Positions 5,124 to 56,654 of a stretch of DNA of 64,000 nt are shown in pieces. Numbering within the stretch: the stretch's first letter is position 1; the number at the start of each line of letters is the position of its first letter. The notes under the pieces are model-generated. The model was not told the origin of the DNA. It saw only the letters and a program-made list of their open reading frames with translations, and searched no databases. The stretch is from Propionibacteriaceae bacterium. Lineage in GTDB: Bacteria; Actinomycetota; Actinomycetes; Propionibacteriales; Propionibacteriaceae. The stretch is from assembly GCA_027492675.1 (NCBI GenBank), contig JAPUEI010000050.1, forward strand, positions 1 through 64,000, in the 5' to 3' direction. The position numbers and the translations under genes were made by a program.

Positions 5124-5164
5124 CTGTGAAAGTTCCCGATGAACTCGCTGTGTGTTCCCTGTGA
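5124..5164. promoter_or_regulatory. PhoP-type direct repeats upstream of the response regulator
   Basis: CTGTG starts at 5148 and 5159 with exact 11-bp spacing (CTGTGTGTTCCCTGTGA), the same pattern as at 2881/2892; a further CTGTGA half-site is at 5124. On the minus strand the pair reads as TCACAG-like repeats just upstream of the regulator start at 5102. Probable autoregulatory site. Confidence 0.65.
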
Positions 5165-5173
5165 ATACGCCCG

Positions 5174-5629
5174 TCAGGCCGGGTCCCGGTCGTACACCGA
5201 CGTGGAACTCGACGGCTTGCGTCCCTTGCGGAACAGGTTGTCGACGCCGGCGCGGCCGGAGCCGAAGACGACCAGCACGAGCGCGAGCACAGCCAGGATG
5301 ACGGGGTACTCGACACCGTCGGTCGTGAGCCACAGACCATTGCGCCACTTCATCCAGGCGATGACCATCACCTGCTCGGCCACGACGACGGCCGCGACGA
5401 CGGGCGTCAGCAGGCCGAACACCAGAAGGGCTCCGCCGAGCACCTCGAGCACCGTGGCGCCCCAGGCGAACAGTTGCGGCTGCGGCAGGCCGTACAGCGA
5501 CAGGTTGTCCGCGGCGGGCCCCATGCCCGAGCTGAAGCGGTGCCAGCCGTGCCCGATCAGTACGAGCCCGAGCGCGACGCGCGCCACCAGCAACCCGATG
5601 TCCTGCACCACCTTGATGAACGCTTTCAC
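5174..5629 (-). CDS. DoxX family membrane protein
   Basis: 151 residues with four hydrophobic segments (about 7-25, 54-75, 77-97, 112-130). The family pattern RVALGLVLIGHGWHRF near the N-terminus and FAWGATVLEVLGGALLVFGL in the second segment are typical of DoxX/SURF4-like quinone-linked or thiol-oxidative stress membrane proteins. A cytoplasmic tail RKGRKPSSSTSVYDRDP ends the protein. The GTG start at 5629 has GGAGGCGCC directly upstream. The gene is codirectional with the response regulator but is separated from it by the PhoP-like boxes, so the regulator probably has its own promoter. Precise substrate unknown. Confidence 0.85.
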   Translation of the reverse strand: MKAFIKVVQDIGLLVARVALGLVLIGHGWHRFSSGMGPAADNLSLYGLPQPQLFAWGATVLEVLGGALLVFGLLTPVVAAVVVAEQVMVIAWMKWRNGLWLTTDGVEYPVILAVLALVLVVFGSGRAGVDNLFRKGRKPSSSTSVYDRDPA

Positions 5630-5732
5630 GGCGCCTCCTTCGTCGGCACCACCGTAGTGGGCAGGGGGCGCCGTGCGGAGGAGGCGGCGAGTGAGCCGTG
5701 GGGATGCGAGGTTTGCTGGGGGCCAGTGGGGT

Positions 5733-5800
5733 GCTTGGCAAGGCATGGCGTGCTTGGCAAGGCATGGGCGCCTTGCCAAGCGCTGCTTCCCTTGCCAAGC
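5733..5800. repeat. Tetrad repeat, family A (CTTGSCAAG), locus 1
   Basis: Four 11-bp units in the divergent gap between DoxX and the 5939 gene: GCTTGGCAAGG at 5733 and 5752, then the reverse complement CCTTGCCAAGC at 5771 and 5790. All three steps are exactly 19 bp. Each unit is itself nearly palindromic. The DNA between units is not repeated. The same units and the same 19-19-19 spacing occur at 19501-19568. Confidence 0.9.
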
Positions 5801-5938: not shown

Positions 5939-6325
5939 GTGACTGACAACACCTCGCTGTACGAGCTGTGGAAGAAGCTGATGGGCCCCGGCGGCTTCGC
6001 GCGCCGGAGCATCTGGATGATCTGCTTCCACCCCGACGGGCGCACCGTTCCCGAGATCCAGGCATTCGATGAGATCCCGGTGGAGCCGGACCCCCGCATG
6101 GCCGACGGTCTGGAGTCCATCGTCACCAGCATGATCGAGGATCTCGGCGTGGGATCCGTGGCGTTCCTGCTGTCCCGGCCGGGATCGCCCTCGATGTCCG
6201 AGGGCGACCGCCGGTGGGCCCGTGCGCTGCAATCGCTGTGCGCTCGGGGCGGGTGGCCGCTGCACCTGGCGACGTACGACACGATCCGCGTCTTCTCAGC
6301 CGACGACCTGGTCCAGTCGGCATGA
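5939..6325 (+). CDS. Conserved-looking hypothetical protein, 128 aa
   Basis: I do not recognise a confirmed family. The protein starts MTDNTSLYELW if GTG 5939 is used; GGAG six bases upstream supports this over ATG 5915. It is predicted soluble, with a compact alpha/beta look: WMICFHPDGRTVPEI, then GSVAFLLSRPGSPSMSEGDR, a helix RRWARALQSLC and the strand pair WPLHLATYDTIRVFSADDL. The order resembles degenerate JAB/RadC-like small domains (SRPG where JAB has HxHP) but the metal-binding His residues are absent, so this is only a weak analogy. It stands alone, divergent from DoxX across tetrad repeat A. Confidence 0.7.
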   Translation: MTDNTSLYELWKKLMGPGGFARRSIWMICFHPDGRTVPEIQAFDEIPVEPDPRMADGLESIVTSMIEDLGVGSVAFLLSRPGSPSMSEGDRRWARALQSLCARGGWPLHLATYDTIRVFSADDLVQSA

Positions 6326-19408: not shown

Positions 19409-19420
19409 CCCCCGGTCACG

Positions 19421-19471
19421 CCTCTGACCCACCACCGCCTCTGACCCACCACCGCCTCTGACCCACCACCG
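19421..19471 (+). repeat. Three tandem 17-bp repeats
   Basis: CCTCTGACCCACCACCG is repeated three times without mismatch at 19421, 19438 and 19455, flanked by GTCACG on both sides. It lies in the convergent gap after the phosphoribosyltransferase gene, 30 bp before tetrad A locus 2. Function unknown. Confidence 0.9.
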
Positions 19472-19500: not shown

Positions 19501-19568
19501 GCTTGGCAAGGCAAGGCGTCCTTGGCAAGACAACGGCGCATTGCCAAGCAGCCCTTGCCTTGCCAAGC
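19501..19568. repeat. Tetrad repeat, family A (CTTGSCAAG), locus 2
   Basis: CTTGGCAAG at 19502 and 19521, then ATTGCCAAG at 19540 and CTTGCCAAG at 19559: steps of exactly 19, 19 and 19 bp, as at 5733-5800. One unit has a single substitution. It fills the convergent space between the phosphoribosyltransferase and CBS-domain genes. Confidence 0.9.
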
Positions 19569-42612: not shown

Positions 42613-42620
42613 GGCTCGGG

Positions 42621-42691
42621 GAGAGGTCTCGTACTCCTTGGGGAGAGAAGTGAGACCCCTTCGCGAGAGACCTTAGGACGCTTCGCGAGAG
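42621..42691 (-). repeat. Four-unit 22-bp repeat, family D, locus 1
   Basis: GAGAG recurs at 42621, 42643, 42665 and 42687 with exact 22-bp steps. Read on the minus strand the first units give CTCTCCCCAAGGAGTACGAG, very close to the units of the long array at 47275 (CTCTCCCCGAGGGGTACGAG). The last two units run into the 3' end of the MerR gene and encode its terminal SREAS. Convergent gap after glgX. Confidence 0.88.
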
Positions 42692-43038
42692 ACGTTGGGT
42701 TCGGTCGCCCAGCGGCTGACGAGCGTCCGCGCCTTGGCGAGCTGCTCGGCGCGCTCATCGAGCATCGAGTACAGCTGGCTGGCGAACGAGTCGCGGGCGC
42801 GGGGCTCGGTGTGGGCGGGCAGGTACATGCGGATGTCCTTCAGCGGTACGCCGGCGTGGCGCAGCGCCTGGATCACCTCGAGCTCGGTGATGTCGTCCTC
42901 GTGGTAGCGACGGTGGCCGCTGCGATCGCGGTGCGGCGCCAGGAGACCTGAGGTCTCGTAGAACCGGATCGTCTCGACCGGCAACCCCGTGCGATCGGCG
43001 ACCACGCCGATCGAATGTCCGCTATCTGTTTTCCCCAC
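42673..43038 (-). CDS. MerR family transcriptional regulator
   Basis: 121 residues. N-terminal MerR winged helix SIGVVADRTGLPVETIRFYETSGLL, second helix HRRYHEDDITELEVIQALRHAGVPL, KDIRMYL and a coiled-coil dimerisation helix (SQLYSMLDERAEQLAKARTLVSRW). No Cys cluster for metal sensing, so it more likely senses a small molecule or acts on redox genes. GTG 43038 is the best start; no ribosome site is visible upstream, so it may be leaderless. The final residues are encoded by family D repeat DNA. Target unknown. Confidence 0.85.
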   Translation of the reverse strand: MGKTDSGHSIGVVADRTGLPVETIRFYETSGLLAPHRDRSGHRRYHEDDITELEVIQALRHAGVPLKDIRMYLPAHTEPRARDSFASQLYSMLDERAEQLAKARTLVSRWATEPNVSREAS

Positions 43039-44805: not shown

Positions 44806-46299
44806 TCAGGTGTGGCCTGGGAAGTCGAAGCTGGCGGCCGCGGCCCGCTGGTCCTGATGGGGCCAGCGGGTCGTGATGGCCTTGGCGCGCGTGTAGAAGC
44901 GGACCGCCTCGGGGCCGTGGGCGTGGTGATCGCCGAACAGGGAGTCCTTCCAGCCGCCGAAGGAGTAGTAGCCGACCGGTACGGGGATCGGCACGTTCAC
45001 GCCGACCATGCCGACCTGGATCTGCTCGGTGAAGACCCTTGCCGCCTCGCCGCTGGCGGTGAAGATGGCCGTGCCGTTCCCGTACGGCGAGCTGTTCACC
45101 AGCGCGATCGCCTCGTCGAGCGTGTCGACCTCCATGACGACCAGCAGGGGGCCGAAGACCTCGTCGCAGTACGCGCGCATGGTGGGCCGTACGTGGCGCA
45201 GCACGGTCGGGCCGACGAAGAAGCCCTCCTCGTAGCCGGCCACCACGAGCCCGCGACCGTCGACGACCGCCTCGGCGCCGCCAGCAACGGCCTCGTCCAC
45301 GAAGTCGATGACCCGCTGCCGCGAGGCCGCCGTGATGACCGGTCCCATGGTCGTCGTGGCCTGGTCACCGGGGCCGACGACGATCGCCTCCGCCTCCGCC
45401 TTGAGCGCTGCCACCAGCGCGTCACCCGCGCCGCCGACGGCGACCGCCACCGGTACGGCCATGCAGCGCTCGCCTGCAGATCCGAAGGCGCCCGCCGCGA
45501 TCTGGGAGGCGGCGAAGGCCATGTCGGCGTCCGGCATCACGACGGCGTGGTTGTTCGCGCCGCCCAACGCCTGTACGCGCTTGCCTGCCAACATGCCCTG
45601 CGCCTGTACGTACCTCGCGATCGGCGTCGACCCCACGAAGGAGACGGCCGCGATGTCGGGGTGGGCGAGGATCGCGTCCACCGCGTCCTTCCCGCCGTGG
45701 ACCACCTGGAACACGCCATCGGGGAGCCCGGCCCGCCTGTACAGCTCGGCGATCATGTTCGAGGCCGACGGGTCGCGCTCGCTCGGCTTGAGGATGAACG
45801 CGTTGCCGCACGCGACGGCGATCGGATGCATCCACATCGGCACCATGGCGGGGAAGTTGAACGGCGTGATGCCGGCGACGACCCCCAGCGGCTGGCGCAT
45901 GCTGTGCACGTCGACGCCGGTGGAGACGTTGCTGGAGTAGCCGCCCTTGAGGTGCGACGCGATCCCGCACGCGAACTCCACCGACTCACGCCCCCGGGCG
46001 ATCTCGCCGGCCGCGTCGGGGACCGTCTTGCCGTGCTCACGGCTGATGACCCGCGCCAGGGCGTCCGTGTTCTCGACGAGGAGCTGCCGGAACGCGTACA
46101 GCACCTCCGTGCGCTTGGCCAGGGATGCGGCAGACCAGGTACGAGCCGCGCGTACGCCCTCCTGCACCGCGCGGTCGACCACGGCCGCGTCAGCGAGCGC
46201 GACGGCACCGATCGGGGATCCCGTCGAGGGGTCGAGGATGGGCTGCGTGGCGCCGGTCGACTCGACTTCGGCACCGCCGATCCAGTGGGACACGGTCAT
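44806..46299 (-). CDS. mmsA: Methylmalonate-semialdehyde dehydrogenase (CoA-acylating)
   Basis: 497 residues of the aldehyde dehydrogenase superfamily. Catalytic Cys in FGSAGERCMAVPVAV (about 280), NAD-binding GSTPIARYV (about 224), MPDADMAFAA and the end SFGGWKDSLFGDHHAHGPEAVRFYTR are typical of MmsA/IolA, which oxidises methylmalonate or malonate semialdehyde to propionyl- or acetyl-CoA in valine and inositol degradation. AAGGAG precedes ATG 46299. Divergent from a GntR gene with TATGTC palindromes between, and iolB carries a similar site, so an inositol role is likely. Products feed the mutAB pathway at 10-15 kb. Confidence 0.93.
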   Translation of the reverse strand: MTVSHWIGGAEVESTGATQPILDPSTGSPIGAVALADAAVVDRAVQEGVRAARTWSAASLAKRTEVLYAFRQLLVENTDALARVISREHGKTVPDAAGEIARGRESVEFACGIASHLKGGYSSNVSTGVDVHSMRQPLGVVAGITPFNFPAMVPMWMHPIAVACGNAFILKPSERDPSASNMIAELYRRAGLPDGVFQVVHGGKDAVDAILAHPDIAAVSFVGSTPIARYVQAQGMLAGKRVQALGGANNHAVVMPDADMAFAASQIAAGAFGSAGERCMAVPVAVAVGGAGDALVAALKAEAEAIVVGPGDQATTTMGPVITAASRQRVIDFVDEAVAGGAEAVVDGRGLVVAGYEEGFFVGPTVLRHVRPTMRAYCDEVFGPLLVVMEVDTLDEAIALVNSSPYGNGTAIFTASGEAARVFTEQIQVGMVGVNVPIPVPVGYYSFGGWKDSLFGDHHAHGPEAVRFYTRAKAITTRWPHQDQRAAAASFDFPGHT

Positions 46300-46334
46300 G
46301 GGCGACTCCTTGAGCGGTGGCTACCTGGGCACTA

Positions 46335-46348
46335 TATGTCAGGACATA
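46335..46348. promoter_or_regulatory. TATGTC-GACATA palindrome, probable GntR operator
   Basis: TATGTCAGGACATA is a perfect 6-bp inverted repeat with a 2-bp spacer, 36-49 bp upstream of mmsA and 150 bp upstream of gntR. An 11-of-14 match precedes iolB at 52085. Probable operator of the adjacent GntR/UTRA protein. Confidence 0.72.
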
Positions 46349-46401
46349 GATGCCGGTCTACCTGTGGCCGGTCAGGCGATGGGTGAACCTGGAGTGCGTA
46401 C

Positions 46402-46416
46402 ATGTCGGCGTGACAT
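46402..46416. promoter_or_regulatory. Second ATGTC-GACAT inverted repeat near gntR
   Basis: ATGTC and GACAT arms around GGCGT, 82-96 bp upstream of the GntR start. It shares the half-site with 46335 but has a longer spacer, so it is a weaker candidate, possibly for autoregulation. Confidence 0.45.
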
Positions 46417-46497
46417 ACTCAAGAGCCTCCGGGCGGCGGCGAGGTCGGCATCAGGCGGGCTTCGAGGACGAGCGGTGCCGGGGCCGGAAGGATCGAG

Positions 46498-47229
46498 ATG
46501 ACCGAGGTCTCCATCGAGGTCGACCGCACGTCCGACGTGCCACTCCATCAGCAGGTGTCCGCGGCCCTGCGCGCGGCCATCGCCTCGGGCGAGCTCGGCC
46601 CGGGGGCACGGGTGGAGAACGAGATCGACCTCGCCACGCGGCTCGGCCTCAGCCGCCCGACGGTCCGGCGCGCGATGGAGGACCTCGTCCACGCGGGTCT
46701 CGTGACGCGTCGTCGCGGCAGCGGCACGATCGTGTCTCCGAGCCAAGTCCGTCGCCGGCTGAGCCTCACCTCGCTGTTCGACGATCTCGAAGCCGAAGGT
46801 CGCAAACCCACCTCGACGGTGCTCGAGTTCTCGATCACACCTGGGTCGGCCGAGATCACCGAGGTCCTGGGCCTCGAGCCGAAGGCCGGGGTCCTCACCA
46901 TCCGGCGGGTCCGCTACGCCAGCGGCGAACCATTGGCGATCCTCACCAACGAGCTCCCGGCCGAGTACGCCCCCGAGTACGGGACGCTCGGCACCTCCGG
47001 CCTGTACGCGAGTCTGCGTGAGCAGGGCATCGTCATCGCCGGTGCGACGCAGCGGATCGGAGCGCGACTCGCGACCCATGCCGAAGCCGACCTGCTGGGC
47101 GAGAGGCCGGGCGCCGCGCTGCTCACGCTCGAGCGACTTGCGTACTCCGCCTCCGGTCGCATCATCGAACGGGCCCACCACGTCTACCGGGCCAGCCTGT
47201 ACTCGTTCGACATGTCCATCGGCCGCTAG
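46498..47229 (+). CDS. GntR-family regulator, HutC/UTRA type
   Basis: 243 residues. N-terminal winged helix (VPLHQQVSAALRAAIASGELGPGARVENEIDLATRLGLSRPTVRRAMEDLVHAGLVTRRRGSGTIV) and UTRA ligand domain (about 95-235: TSTVLEFSITPGSAEITEVLGL, RRVRYASGEPLAI, GATQRIGARLATHAEADLLG, LERLAYSASGRIIERAHHVY). Such proteins bind a sugar or sugar-acid effector. Divergent from mmsA with a strong palindrome between; the similar site before iolB suggests it controls inositol genes. ATG 46498 preceded by GGAAGGATCGAG. Confidence 0.9.
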   Translation: MTEVSIEVDRTSDVPLHQQVSAALRAAIASGELGPGARVENEIDLATRLGLSRPTVRRAMEDLVHAGLVTRRRGSGTIVSPSQVRRRLSLTSLFDDLEAEGRKPTSTVLEFSITPGSAEITEVLGLEPKAGVLTIRRVRYASGEPLAILTNELPAEYAPEYGTLGTSGLYASLREQGIVIAGATQRIGARLATHAEADLLGERPGAALLTLERLAYSASGRIIERAHHVYRASLYSFDMSIGR

Positions 47230-47274
47230 TCCGCGACTCCGAGGCCTTCTTCCGCCCGAGGGTCGCCCCCTATC

Positions 47275-47728
47275 TGCTCGAGGAGAGGTTTAGGACTCCT
47301 CTCCGAGAGGGGTACGAAACCTCTCCCCGAGGGTATGGGACCTCTCCCCGAGGGTATGGGACCTCTCCCCGAGGGGTACAGGACCTCTCCCCGAGGGGTG
47401 CGGGACCTCTCCTCGAGGGGTACGAGATCTCTCCTCGAGGGGTACGAGATCTCTCCCTGAGGGGTACGGGACCTCCCTGAGGGGGTGCCGGACCTCTGCT
47501 CGAGGAGAGGTTTAGGACTCCTCTCCGAGAGGGGTACGAAACCTCTCCTCGAGGGGTACGAGATCTCTCCTCGAGGGGTACGAAACCTCTCCCCGAGGGG
47601 TACGAGATCTCTCCTCGAGGGGTGCGGGACCTCTCCTCGAGGGGTACGGGACCTCTCCGAGAGGGGTACGAAACCTCTCCCCGAGGGGTACGAGATCTCT
47701 CCTCGAGGGGTACGAGATCTCTCCTCGA
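47275..47728 (-). repeat. Long 22-bp tandem array, family D, about 20 units
   Basis: About twenty imperfect units of 22 bp fill 450 bp between the GntR and TetR genes. A common unit begins CTCTCCTCGAGGGGTACGAG; the core TCCTCGAGG/CCCCGAGGGG is palindromic and TACG is often conserved. Two odd members containing CTCGAGGAGAGG (47277 and about 47500) sit 222 bp apart and head similar runs, so the array seems to have grown by duplicating a ten-unit block. There are no unique spacers, so it is not CRISPR. The minus-strand reading frame through it is a repeat artefact. Strand is arbitrary. Confidence 0.92.
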
Positions 47729-47755
47729 CGTGGCGCGGGCCAATCCTTTCCGGGT

Positions 47756-47798
47756 CCCTGAGGAGTTGACCGACGGAGTCGGTCCACGTCTCGAAGGG
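47756..47798 (-). repeat. 43-bp hairpin repeat, copy 2
   Basis: On the minus strand: CCCTTCGAG, nine bases, GACTCCGTC, six bases, CTCCTCAGGG. Same length and order as 27503-27545; the central stem is ACCGAC/GTCGGT here and GCGAC/GTCGC there. It sits between the long array and the TetR promoter and could end transcription from gntR. Confidence 0.75.
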
Positions 47799-47814
47799 CC
47801 CTTTCCTCCACGTC

Positions 47815-47860
47815 TTGACACCACTTGAACGCGGGTTCAAGATGTTGAACATGAGTTCAA
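47815..47860 (+). promoter_or_regulatory. Promoter with two TTGAAC-GTTCAA operators, leaderless TetR start
   Basis: TTGACA (47815) and CAAGAT (47838) are separated by 17 bp, which puts transcription start at about 47850, next to the ATG at 47851. Two palindromes lie on top: CTTGAAC, four bases, GTTCAAG (47824-47841) and TTGAAC, four bases, GTTCAA (47845-47860), centres 20 bp apart. The first overlaps the promoter and the second the start codon. Probable autorepressor sites of the TetR protein. Confidence 0.78.
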
Positions 47861-48516
47861 GTGACGACCGAAGTACACCGGCCCGCATTCGCGACGCGGC
47901 GGTGGAGCTGGTCGGCAGGCAGGGCTGGGACAGGACCACCACGCGCCAGATCGCGGAGGCGGCGTCCGTACCCGTGGGCCTGGTGAACTACCACTTCGGG
48001 TCCAAGGACGGGCTACGGCAGGCGTGCGACGACTGGGTGATCAGTGCGCTGGCCGAGGACAAGGGGCTGATCCTGGGGGCCGGCCCGCTGCCGCGGATGG
48101 ACACCTACCTCGACGACCATCCCGAGTTGCGGCCGATCACCGAGTACATCGGGCAGTGCATGCGCTCGGGCGGTGCCGTCGCCGAGACCTTCTACGAGCG
48201 CATGGTCGAGATGACGCAGGAGATGATGACGCTGGCCGCCGACGCGGGCACCTTCCGCAGGTACGACGATCCGTACGCCGCCGCGGTCATCCTCGTCGCC
48301 TTCGGGGCGGGCGCCTCGCTGTTCAACACCACCATCGCGCGCCTGCTCGGCGGCACGAACCTGCTCGACAGCGCGACGTACAACCGGTACGCGATGACGA
48401 CCGTCGACCTCTTCACCCACCCGCTGATCACCGATGAGCGCTATCTGAGCGCGCTCAAGACACCCGACGTACCCCCGACGACGGCCGAGGGCGACATTGG
48501 CAAGGAGAACGCATGA
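47851..48516 (+). CDS. TetR family regulator of the downstream ABC exporter
   Basis: 221 residues. N-terminal TetR helix-turn-helix (ARIRDAAVELVGRQGWDRTTTRQIAEAASVPVGLVNYHFGSKDGLRQACDDWV), then a helical ligand domain. ATG 47851 is taken because the promoter predicts a leaderless message starting there; ATG 47842 is the in-frame alternative. Double palindromic operators cover its promoter and start. Its stop overlaps the ABC ATPase ATG by 4 bp (ATGA), so regulator, ATPase and permease form one operon, the usual arrangement for drug exporters repressed by their own TetR. Confidence 0.9.
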   Translation: MSSSDDRSTPARIRDAAVELVGRQGWDRTTTRQIAEAASVPVGLVNYHFGSKDGLRQACDDWVISALAEDKGLILGAGPLPRMDTYLDDHPELRPITEYIGQCMRSGGAVAETFYERMVEMTQEMMTLAADAGTFRRYDDPYAAAVILVAFGAGASLFNTTIARLLGGTNLLDSATYNRYAMTTVDLFTHPLITDERYLSALKTPDVPPTTAEGDIGKENA

Positions 48517-49418
48517 CCACCACTGCGATAGAGATCTCGAACCTCGTCAAGAGGTTCGGCAGCACGACCGCGCTCGATGGGTTGACGATGTCCGTCCCGA
48601 CCGGTCAGGTCCACGGCTTCCTCGGACCCAACGGTGCCGGCAAGTCCACGACCATCCGCGTGCTGCTCGGGCTGCTCCGCGCCGACTCGGGAAGCGCGCG
48701 CCTTCTGGGCGGCGACCCCTGGCGCGACGCGGCGAGCCTGCACCGTCGCCTGGCGTACGTGCCGGGCGACGTCAACCTCTGGCCCAACCTCACCGGTGGT
48801 GAGGCGATCGACATCATCGGCCGTGCCCGCGGTGGTCTCGACAAGGCCAAGCGCGCCATGCTCATCGAGCGCTTCGACCTCGACCCGACGAAGAAGGGGC
48901 GTGCGTACTCGAAGGGCAACCGTCAGAAGGTGGCACTCGTCGCGGCGCTCGCCTCCGACGTCGAGCTGCTCCTACTCGACGAGCCCACGTCCGGCCTCGA
49001 CCCGCTCATGGAGAAGGTCTTCAGCGACGTCATCGTGTCCGAGCGCAAGGACAACACGACCGTGCTGCTGTCCAGCCACATCCTCAGCGAGGTCGAGCAG
49101 CTCTGCGACCACGTGAGCATCATCCGCGAAGGACAGATCGTCGAGACCGGCACGCTCGACCAGCTCCGCCACCTGCACCGTACGCGCCTGTCCGCGACGG
49201 TCCCGGATCCCTCCGTGCTGGCTGCGCTTCCCGGTGTGTACGGGCTCGCGACCGAGGGGGGCCGCACCACGTTCGAGGCCGACGACGACGCGATGTCGGG
49301 CGTGCTCGCCGCGCTGGCCCGCTCCGGCGCGACCGGCGTCACGGCCACGCCGCCGAGCCTTGAGGAACTGTTCCTGTCGCACTACGACACGCACGCGAGC
49401 GAGAAGGCCCTCGTATGA
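48513..49418 (+). CDS. ABC exporter ATP-binding protein
   Basis: 301 residues. Walker A GPNGAGKSTTIRVL (about 38-51), Q-loop VPGDVN, a signature segment KGRAYSKGNRQKVALVAALASD in which SxGN replaces the usual SGGQ, Walker B LLLLDEPTSGLDP and switch His in LLSSHILSEVEQL. C-terminal extension (about 215-301) is typical of drug-resistance ATPases of the DrrA/CcmA type. It energises the permease encoded immediately downstream (ATGA overlap). Probably exports a polyketide-like or lipophilic drug. Confidence 0.92.
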   Translation: MTTTAIEISNLVKRFGSTTALDGLTMSVPTGQVHGFLGPNGAGKSTTIRVLLGLLRADSGSARLLGGDPWRDAASLHRRLAYVPGDVNLWPNLTGGEAIDIIGRARGGLDKAKRAMLIERFDLDPTKKGRAYSKGNRQKVALVAALASDVELLLLDEPTSGLDPLMEKVFSDVIVSERKDNTTVLLSSHILSEVEQLCDHVSIIREGQIVETGTLDQLRHLHRTRLSATVPDPSVLAALPGVYGLATEGGRTTFEADDDAMSGVLAALARSGATGVTATPPSLEELFLSHYDTHASEKALV

Positions 49419-56103: not shown

Positions 56104-56126
56104 GCGCTGCGGATCCGTACCTCGGG

Positions 56127-56196
56127 GAGAGACTCTGGGACCCTTGGGGAGAGAAGTTGGGCAGCTGCGGAGAGAAGTTGGGCCTCGCAGCGAGAG
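56127..56196 (-). repeat. Four-unit 22-bp repeat, family D, locus 3
   Basis: GAGAG at 56127, 56149, 56170 and 56192, steps 22, 21, 22. On the minus strand the units read CTCTCCCCAAGGGTCCCAGA and variants, clearly related to the 47275 array. Lies between the hydrolase-like and rhaM genes, both rightward. Confidence 0.85.
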
Positions 56197-56226
56197 ACTT
56201 CAGCACGGCACGCCAAGGGAGGCAGC

Positions 56227-56550
56227 ATGCAGAGGGTCGGGTTCGTGACGCACGTCGCGCCGGAGCACATCGCCGAGTACGTCGAGCGACACCGCGCGGT
56301 GTGGCCGGAGATGCAGGACGCGCTGCGTCGTACGGGCTGGGGCAACTACTCGCTGTTCATCAGCCCCGACGGGACACTCTTCGGGTACGTGGAGACGCCG
56401 GAGGGGTTGGCGACTGCACAAGCGGGAATGGCCGCCGAGGAGGTCAATGCGCGCTGGCAGGCGTCCGTACAGCACCTGTTCGAGGGCATCGGAGATCAGA
56501 CCGCCGACGAGTCCTTCCTCGAACTGATCGAGGTCTTCCACCTCGACTGA
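56227..56550 (+). CDS. rhaM: L-rhamnose mutarotase
   Basis: 107 residues of the dimeric ferredoxin-like fold. RVGFVTHVAPEHIAEYVERHRAVWPEMQDALRRTGWGNYSLFISPDGTLFGYVET contains the catalytic His and the VWPEM, NYS and LFGYxE motifs of RhaM, which interconverts anomers of L-rhamnose or L-fucose. GGGAGG lies upstream of ATG 56227. No other rhamnose gene is near. Placed between two family D repeat loci. Confidence 0.92.
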   Translation: MQRVGFVTHVAPEHIAEYVERHRAVWPEMQDALRRTGWGNYSLFISPDGTLFGYVETPEGLATAQAGMAAEEVNARWQASVQHLFEGIGDQTADESFLELIEVFHLD

Positions 56551-56553
56551 GTT

Positions 56554-56624
56554 CTCTCGCCAATGGTGCGGAAGTCTCTCGCCAATGGTGCGGAAGTCTC
56601 TCGCCAAGCGTGCGGAAGTCTCTC
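56554..56624 (+). repeat. Four-unit 22-bp repeat, family D variant, locus 4
   Basis: CTCTCGCCAATGGTGCGGAA starts the unit at 56554, 56576, 56598; a fourth CTCTC is at 56620. Steps of exactly 22 bp and nearly identical sequence, with a different core from the other D loci but the same CTCTC head and GGTGCGG middle. Convergent gap between rhaM and the ABC exporter. Confidence 0.9.
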
Positions 56625-56654
56625 GGTAGCCCGGGGGCAATCGGGTGGGCCCGA

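Follow-up and report, generated by a model that had tools for sequence, protein, structure and literature searches.

Why does a run of about twenty imperfect 22-bp repeats lie between two regulator genes, gntR and tetR, in the genome of a soil bacterium? Could it be an operator that serves these two neighbours, whose expression a first-pass annotation proposed to measure after deletion of the array, or does it belong to a larger set of elements? We analysed the array within the 64,000-nt stretch of DNA that contains it (the window), within its host genome, a 3.27 Mb draft from an uncultivated soil bacterium of the Propionibacteriaceae, and against related genomes and known repeat families. Genes were called with a codon-model caller built for this analysis, not a published one.

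Anatomy of the array

The array is clearly the top-scoring tandem repeat of the window. TRF places a period-22 repeat at 47298-47728 (19.5 copies, score 458) and a listing of the cores yields 20 minus-sense units, which bears out the original count. Eighteen of these, on the minus strand between 47303 and 47723, carry an exact GAGAG and follow one another in steps of 22 bp except two of 21; two degenerate units of the same sense lie near 47472-47494, and single plus-strand units are found at 47283 and 47505. The core had been described as a palindrome (CCCCGAGGGG or TCCTCGAGG). It is palindromic only in part, and GAGAG, read here on the minus strand, gives it a fixed polarity; throughout, the polarity of an array is that of the strand reading GAGAG.

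The proposed duplication of a 222-bp block is likewise confirmed. The two copies (Table 1) are identical in 194 of 226 aligned columns, and their first 51 bp, inverted unit and junction included, do not differ at all. Because the two blocks have otherwise diverged, they represent a duplication and not an echo of the assembly. When 338 kb of the genome were subjected to mononucleotide shuffling, no such runs arose, compared to 66 observed. A coding repeat was considered and rejected, as the minus-strand ORF that spans the array has a period of 22 bp, which is not a multiple of three.

Table 1. Coordinates of the arrays and of the neighbouring genes in the window.
Feature	Position	Strand	Description
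Whole array	47275..47731	- (GAGAG sense strand)	20 minus-sense 22-bp units and two plus-sense units
222-bp block, copy 1	47275..47496		plus-sense core 47283-47287, 11-nt junction, then 9-10 minus-sense units
222-bp block, copy 2	47497..47718		plus-sense core 47505-47509, identical junction, then ten minus-sense units continuing to 47731
GntR/UTRA regulator gene gntR	46498..47229	+	Pfam GntR and UTRA, gene call; stop 46 bp before the array
TetR-family regulator gene tetR	47902..48516	+	Pfam TetR_N; downstream of the array
Four-unit array, two type 1 and two type 2 units in one register	42614..42701	+	1 bp after the glgX stop
Four-unit type 2 array	56120..56206	+	16 bp after an alpha/beta hydrolase gene
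Four-unit type 2 array	56544..56631	-	23 bp past an ABC exporter gene on the minus strand

Other short repeats occur in the window. A ~55-bp imperfect palindrome (CCGGGTCCCTGAGGAGTTGACC...GGTCCACGTCTCGAAGGGCCC; GGGTCCCTGAGGAG...CGTCTCGAAGGGYCC) lies at 47751..47803, between the array and tetR, and has copies beside or inside arrays at L061 (near 6040-6120) and L062 (near 5130-5190); it looks like a separate, dispersed REP-like family. A 19-bp tandem family (TTGGCAAGRCAAGGCGTCA) is found at 5727-5780 and 19503-19548, and a 17-bp unit occurs three times without mismatch at 19419-19471.

A genome-wide family of arrays

Is the array an isolated case? Two unit profiles, run on fetched regions of the host genome, yield at least 63 loci with 89 arrays and approximately 489 units. 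Matches to the unit with up to three mismatches number 264, compared to 15 for the reversed control, and further arrays were shown by BLAST and by a second pattern. The annotation had seen an expansion relative to three other loci of four units each. Inside the window that unit number holds for all three (Table 1), whereas genome-wide the arrays range from 2 to 19 units; the array at C96:812-1367 equals ours in length. The window array is thus an enlarged member of one family, but it is not isolated, and its family extends far beyond four loci. Since many arrays lie at contig ends, our count is a minimum; assembly of this draft genome probably breaks at the arrays, which are hence undercounted. 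Contigs C2, C7, C29, C31, C64, C80, C89 and C93 of G000 begin or end inside or beside arrays.

Units come in two types, which read CCTCGGGGAGAGGTCTSGTACC (type 1) and CSTTRSCGAGAGACTTYCGSAC (type 2) in the sense direction, with 18-bp site consensus sequences of (C)CTCGGGGAGAGGTCTSGT and STTRSCGAGAGACTTYCG, respectively. Both types alternate in a single 22-bp register at L055, L061, L067 and at 42.6 kb of the window, and occupy opposite arms at L077 and L081.

Direction, placement and spacing

Where do these arrays lie with respect to genes? A neighbouring gene was called for 70 arms, and 50 of these have the same sense as the gene ending upstream (p=4e-4). They start at a median distance of 18 bp past its stop codon, and 39 of the 50 lie within 50 bp. 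Relative to array-free gaps, loci are six-fold enriched in convergent versus divergent gaps (p=8e-4). The sense rule has exceptions, as 20 of the 70 arms break it and six loci lie between divergent genes. The family sits past the 3' ends of genes of unrelated kinds and is underrepresented between divergent ones; the window array is not an operator of tetR or gntR.

At loci with paired arms, these face inward (sense plus, then sense minus) in 22 of 24 cases (p=4e-5). The only two outward-pointing pairs are L224 (3971-4283) and L229 (4011-4270). The gap between facing arms, from GAGAG to CTCTC, could be measured in 20 pairs: it is 26-28 nt in 14 of them and 48 nt (=26+22) in three more, and its sequence is different at every locus and unconserved. 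Neighbouring cores are exactly 22 bp apart in 327 of 359 instances, although the units themselves differ by 22-35% and are only 72-78% identical within an array. At both ends of an array the homology breaks off abruptly, at positions -6 and +11 relative to the core. These sharp, in-register ends indicate that an array consists of complete 18-bp sites only, joined by 4-bp linkers.

Does this regularity imply a bound protein, as was first proposed from helical phasing? The helical argument itself is weak: with a helical repeat of 10.5 bp, 22 bp make up approximately 2.1 turns. Each unit thus drifts by about 34 degrees and ten units by nearly a full turn, and the units share a face of the DNA only locally. 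Protein bound at regular spacing nonetheless remains the best reading, for the 22-bp spacing is kept between units that have diverged this far.

An orphaned arm at the window locus?

The window array is antisense to gntR and ends before tetR, and is therefore an exception to the sense rule, like 19 other arms. Why should this be so? Two relatives, G004 and G005, carry minus-strand cpn10 and glutaredoxin genes (Cpn10 and Glutaredoxin matches) exactly between gntR and tetR. Judged from gene order in a few relatives, the window array is probably the orphaned 3'-end arm of a lost minus-strand cpn10/glutaredoxin unit. In a layout like that of G004 and G005 it would be an ordinary 3'-end arm, and the single plus-sense unit after gntR would be its partner; cpn10 and glutaredoxin would since have been lost here, leaving the array behind between gntR and tetR. 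This reading is unproven, because G001 and G003 also lack both genes and have no such array. A search of the window for cpn10 or glutaredoxin remnants returned none that were convincing. Directly after the gntR stop of G003 (L167) lie degenerate 18-19-bp repeats (GAGACCACTGACCGTACCC...) that resemble a decayed sense array.

Arrays in other species

Genus mates possess units of their own, CTCGGCGAGAGCACCTGTACCC in G003 and G002 and GAGAGGACCTGTACCGCTCGGG in G005. Three-unit matches to one and the same pattern number 207 in the host genome versus 0-3 in its genus mates; the counts for the genus mates are too low, since the generic pattern GAGAGR misses the GAGAGC units of G002 and G003. Across a comparison set with one genome per species, the family is a species-wide expansion.

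Four successive GAGAG units spaced at 22 bp are present in 17 genomes out of 393 from the Propionibacteriales; the 17 span 10 genera, and each has a unit of its own. CGAGAG at 22 bp was found in 5 of 40 sampled genomes of the order versus 2 of 355 elsewhere in the class, and the reversed pattern in none of the five. Nocardioidaceae genomes contain CGAGAGACTT-type units at 22 bp, again with no reversed match. In these other genera all ten pairs have the inward-facing layout, and a stop codon precedes most arms; the facing gap of 26-28 nt is fixed within the genus only, and measures 4 to 18 nt in G260 and others. Conservation of GAGAG across genera is partly built in, as the search made use of it; this does not apply to polarity, to the facing layout or to the additional ACTT match of Nocardioidaceae (G260, G264). 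Species-specific turnover of the unit is rapid around a conserved CGAGAG core.

Beyond these, Actinomyces and Tessaracoccus have intergenic arrays whose 20-23-bp units differ in sequence from those above; some of these arrays show an inverted partner and a CGAGA core (L101, L110). They are located at L110 5951-6042; L101 20191-20359 and 20570-20694; L114 13659-13893; L108 2359-2469; and L142 5126-5192. Such intergenic arrays may be a wider actinobacterial phenomenon. G157, a genome of the same bacterial family as the host, bears 22-bp arrays of GAGAGCCCCGGTGTTGCGCGCC at many places (C5, C7, C11, C22), and nearly the same unit is present in the named, cultured Propioniciclava sinopodophylli (L122 6548-6626).

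Discussion

What might such arrays do? Fixed spacing, in-register ends, a fixed facing gap of free sequence, and arms that vary independently suggest that a protein recognises a directional site in the DNA and makes contact with its neighbour. The location and orientation of the arrays point to gene ends. We therefore favour, tentatively and at somewhat less than even confidence, the view that the arrays of this family of directional tandem sites, with its 63 or more loci including that of the window, are protein-bound, directional 3'-end barriers. A sequence-specific DNA-binding protein of Propionibacteriales would occupy the sites head to tail, the bound array would act as a one-way barrier that ends or insulates the transcription leaving a gene, and convergent genes would thus carry one arm each. 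Most genes of the genome have no array, so the arrays are not a general terminator.

The main rival, which we judge unlikely but worth serious attention, is a selfish extragenic repeat of the REP/REPIN kind, which some unknown mobility function would spread and which would be tolerated past gene ends only; its polarity would reflect an insertion preference and its tandem copies slippage. Such an element would suit the explosion in a single species seen with the three-unit pattern. It would also suit the array after glgX (isoamylase), which sits between this gene and the convergent merR at a site that is empty in five relatives. Placement agrees as well: the arrays are extragenic, near gene 3' ends and depleted between divergent genes, and REPs, too, are found mainly in gaps between convergent or co-directional genes, in many cases no more than 20 bp from a 3' end (PMC3733652). 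The hallmarks of REPs, however, are missing. A GTAG or CGTC end tag is present in only 4-7% of units, and the unit lacks a stable hairpin (MFE -4.3 and -2.6 kcal/mol, z -0.32 and +0.06). The RAYT/Y1 transposase (PF01797) is absent from all seven genus genomes, in a search whose controls were positive. Moreover, junctions differ at every locus while their spacing is fixed, unlike copies of one mobile unit, and the core and layout are common to other families. A phage origin was considered separately and rejected, as the two-unit patterns had no match in viral contigs.

Could the arrays act in the transcript instead? Tandem hairpins, or a long stem formed by facing arms, might end transcription or protect the mRNA, and both the position past stop codons and the facing arms, which could pair in a transcript, would fit an RNA-level 3' element. 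We consider this distinctly unlikely. Best-unit identity within versus between pairs is 0.818 versus 0.859 for type 1 and 0.827 versus 0.814 for type 2; the two arms of a pair match or complement each other no better than arms of different pairs do, so that no long RNA stem is being maintained. Three single arrays fold like dinucleotide shuffles (z -0.47, -0.97 and +1.03), and single units form no hairpin. No intrinsic terminator (a GC-rich stem followed by a T run) was found in 46000-49000, and no Rfam family scored above its gathering cut-off, the only hits being chance-level miRNA models far below it.

A neutral minisatellite, that is, functionless slippage of local sequence, would explain imperfect repeats, unequal lengths and the 222-bp internal duplication, but is quite improbable given more than 60 unrelated sites with one unit, in-register ends, a 22:2 facing layout, the sense bias, and a core common to families. 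Very improbable, finally, is the loading of Rho on antisense RNA, in which the arm, CCTCTCC-rich as seen from the far side, would keep antisense transcription out of the gene: it accounts for polarity and facing arms as well as the barrier model does, and the antisense strand of type 1 is pyrimidine-rich, but Rho sites (rut) need an excess of C over G, and inspection of the consensus sequences reveals no clear excess of this kind on the antisense strand of type 2 or of other species' units.

We return to the directional 3'-end barrier. Transcription ending in high-GC Actinobacteria, which have few classical terminators, is only partly understood. A broader proposal, which we regard as conceivable but doubtful, is that the arrays belong to an undescribed gene-ending system of Propionibacteriales: a dedicated protein would read CGAGAG-cored 18-bp sites, set head to tail at 22 bp, as a one-way 3'-end barrier, with two facing arms between convergent genes and the remainder of the site turning over by species. 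If true, the directional gene-end array would be a concrete, testable termination device that explodes in one species and has a core common to families. Alternatively, it would represent a novel type of selfish extragenic repeat that has no transposase. The arrays may also be one reason why such genomes assemble poorly.

Comparison with known repeat systems

No described repeat family that we tested fits the arrays, and in the literature on Actinobacteria we found no matching description. REP and BIME elements are species-specific, clustered, short extragenic repeats located between convergent or co-directional genes, near 3' ends; the survey that describes them lists GTAG and CGTC repeats from other phyla, with no mention of Actinobacteria (PMC3733652). 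Our arrays resemble them in being short, dispersed, extragenic, placed at 3' ends, clustered and organised in species-specific families. They differ in having no tag, unit hairpin or RAYT, and in their strict 22-bp head-to-tail order; most REP families have few head-tail dimers or none (PMC3733652).

Mycobacterial MIRU/VNTR loci and other bacterial satellites share with the arrays an intergenic tandem structure and a varying copy number. MIRU units are longer and of other sequence. In the parts of the satellite literature consulted here (PMC6749651), such repeats are described without a fixed polarity to gene ends, facing arms or a conserved core.

A parallel in terms of working is the polar terminator array. 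TTF-I sites are tandem, about 18 bp long and directional. Clustered downstream of mammalian rRNA genes, these Sal boxes specify termination (PMC3772059). TTF-I serves eukaryotic RNA polymerase I. The likeness, an analogy of working only, lies in short, clustered binding sites just downstream of a transcribed region, and our arrays, too, are tandem sites oriented downstream of the gene.
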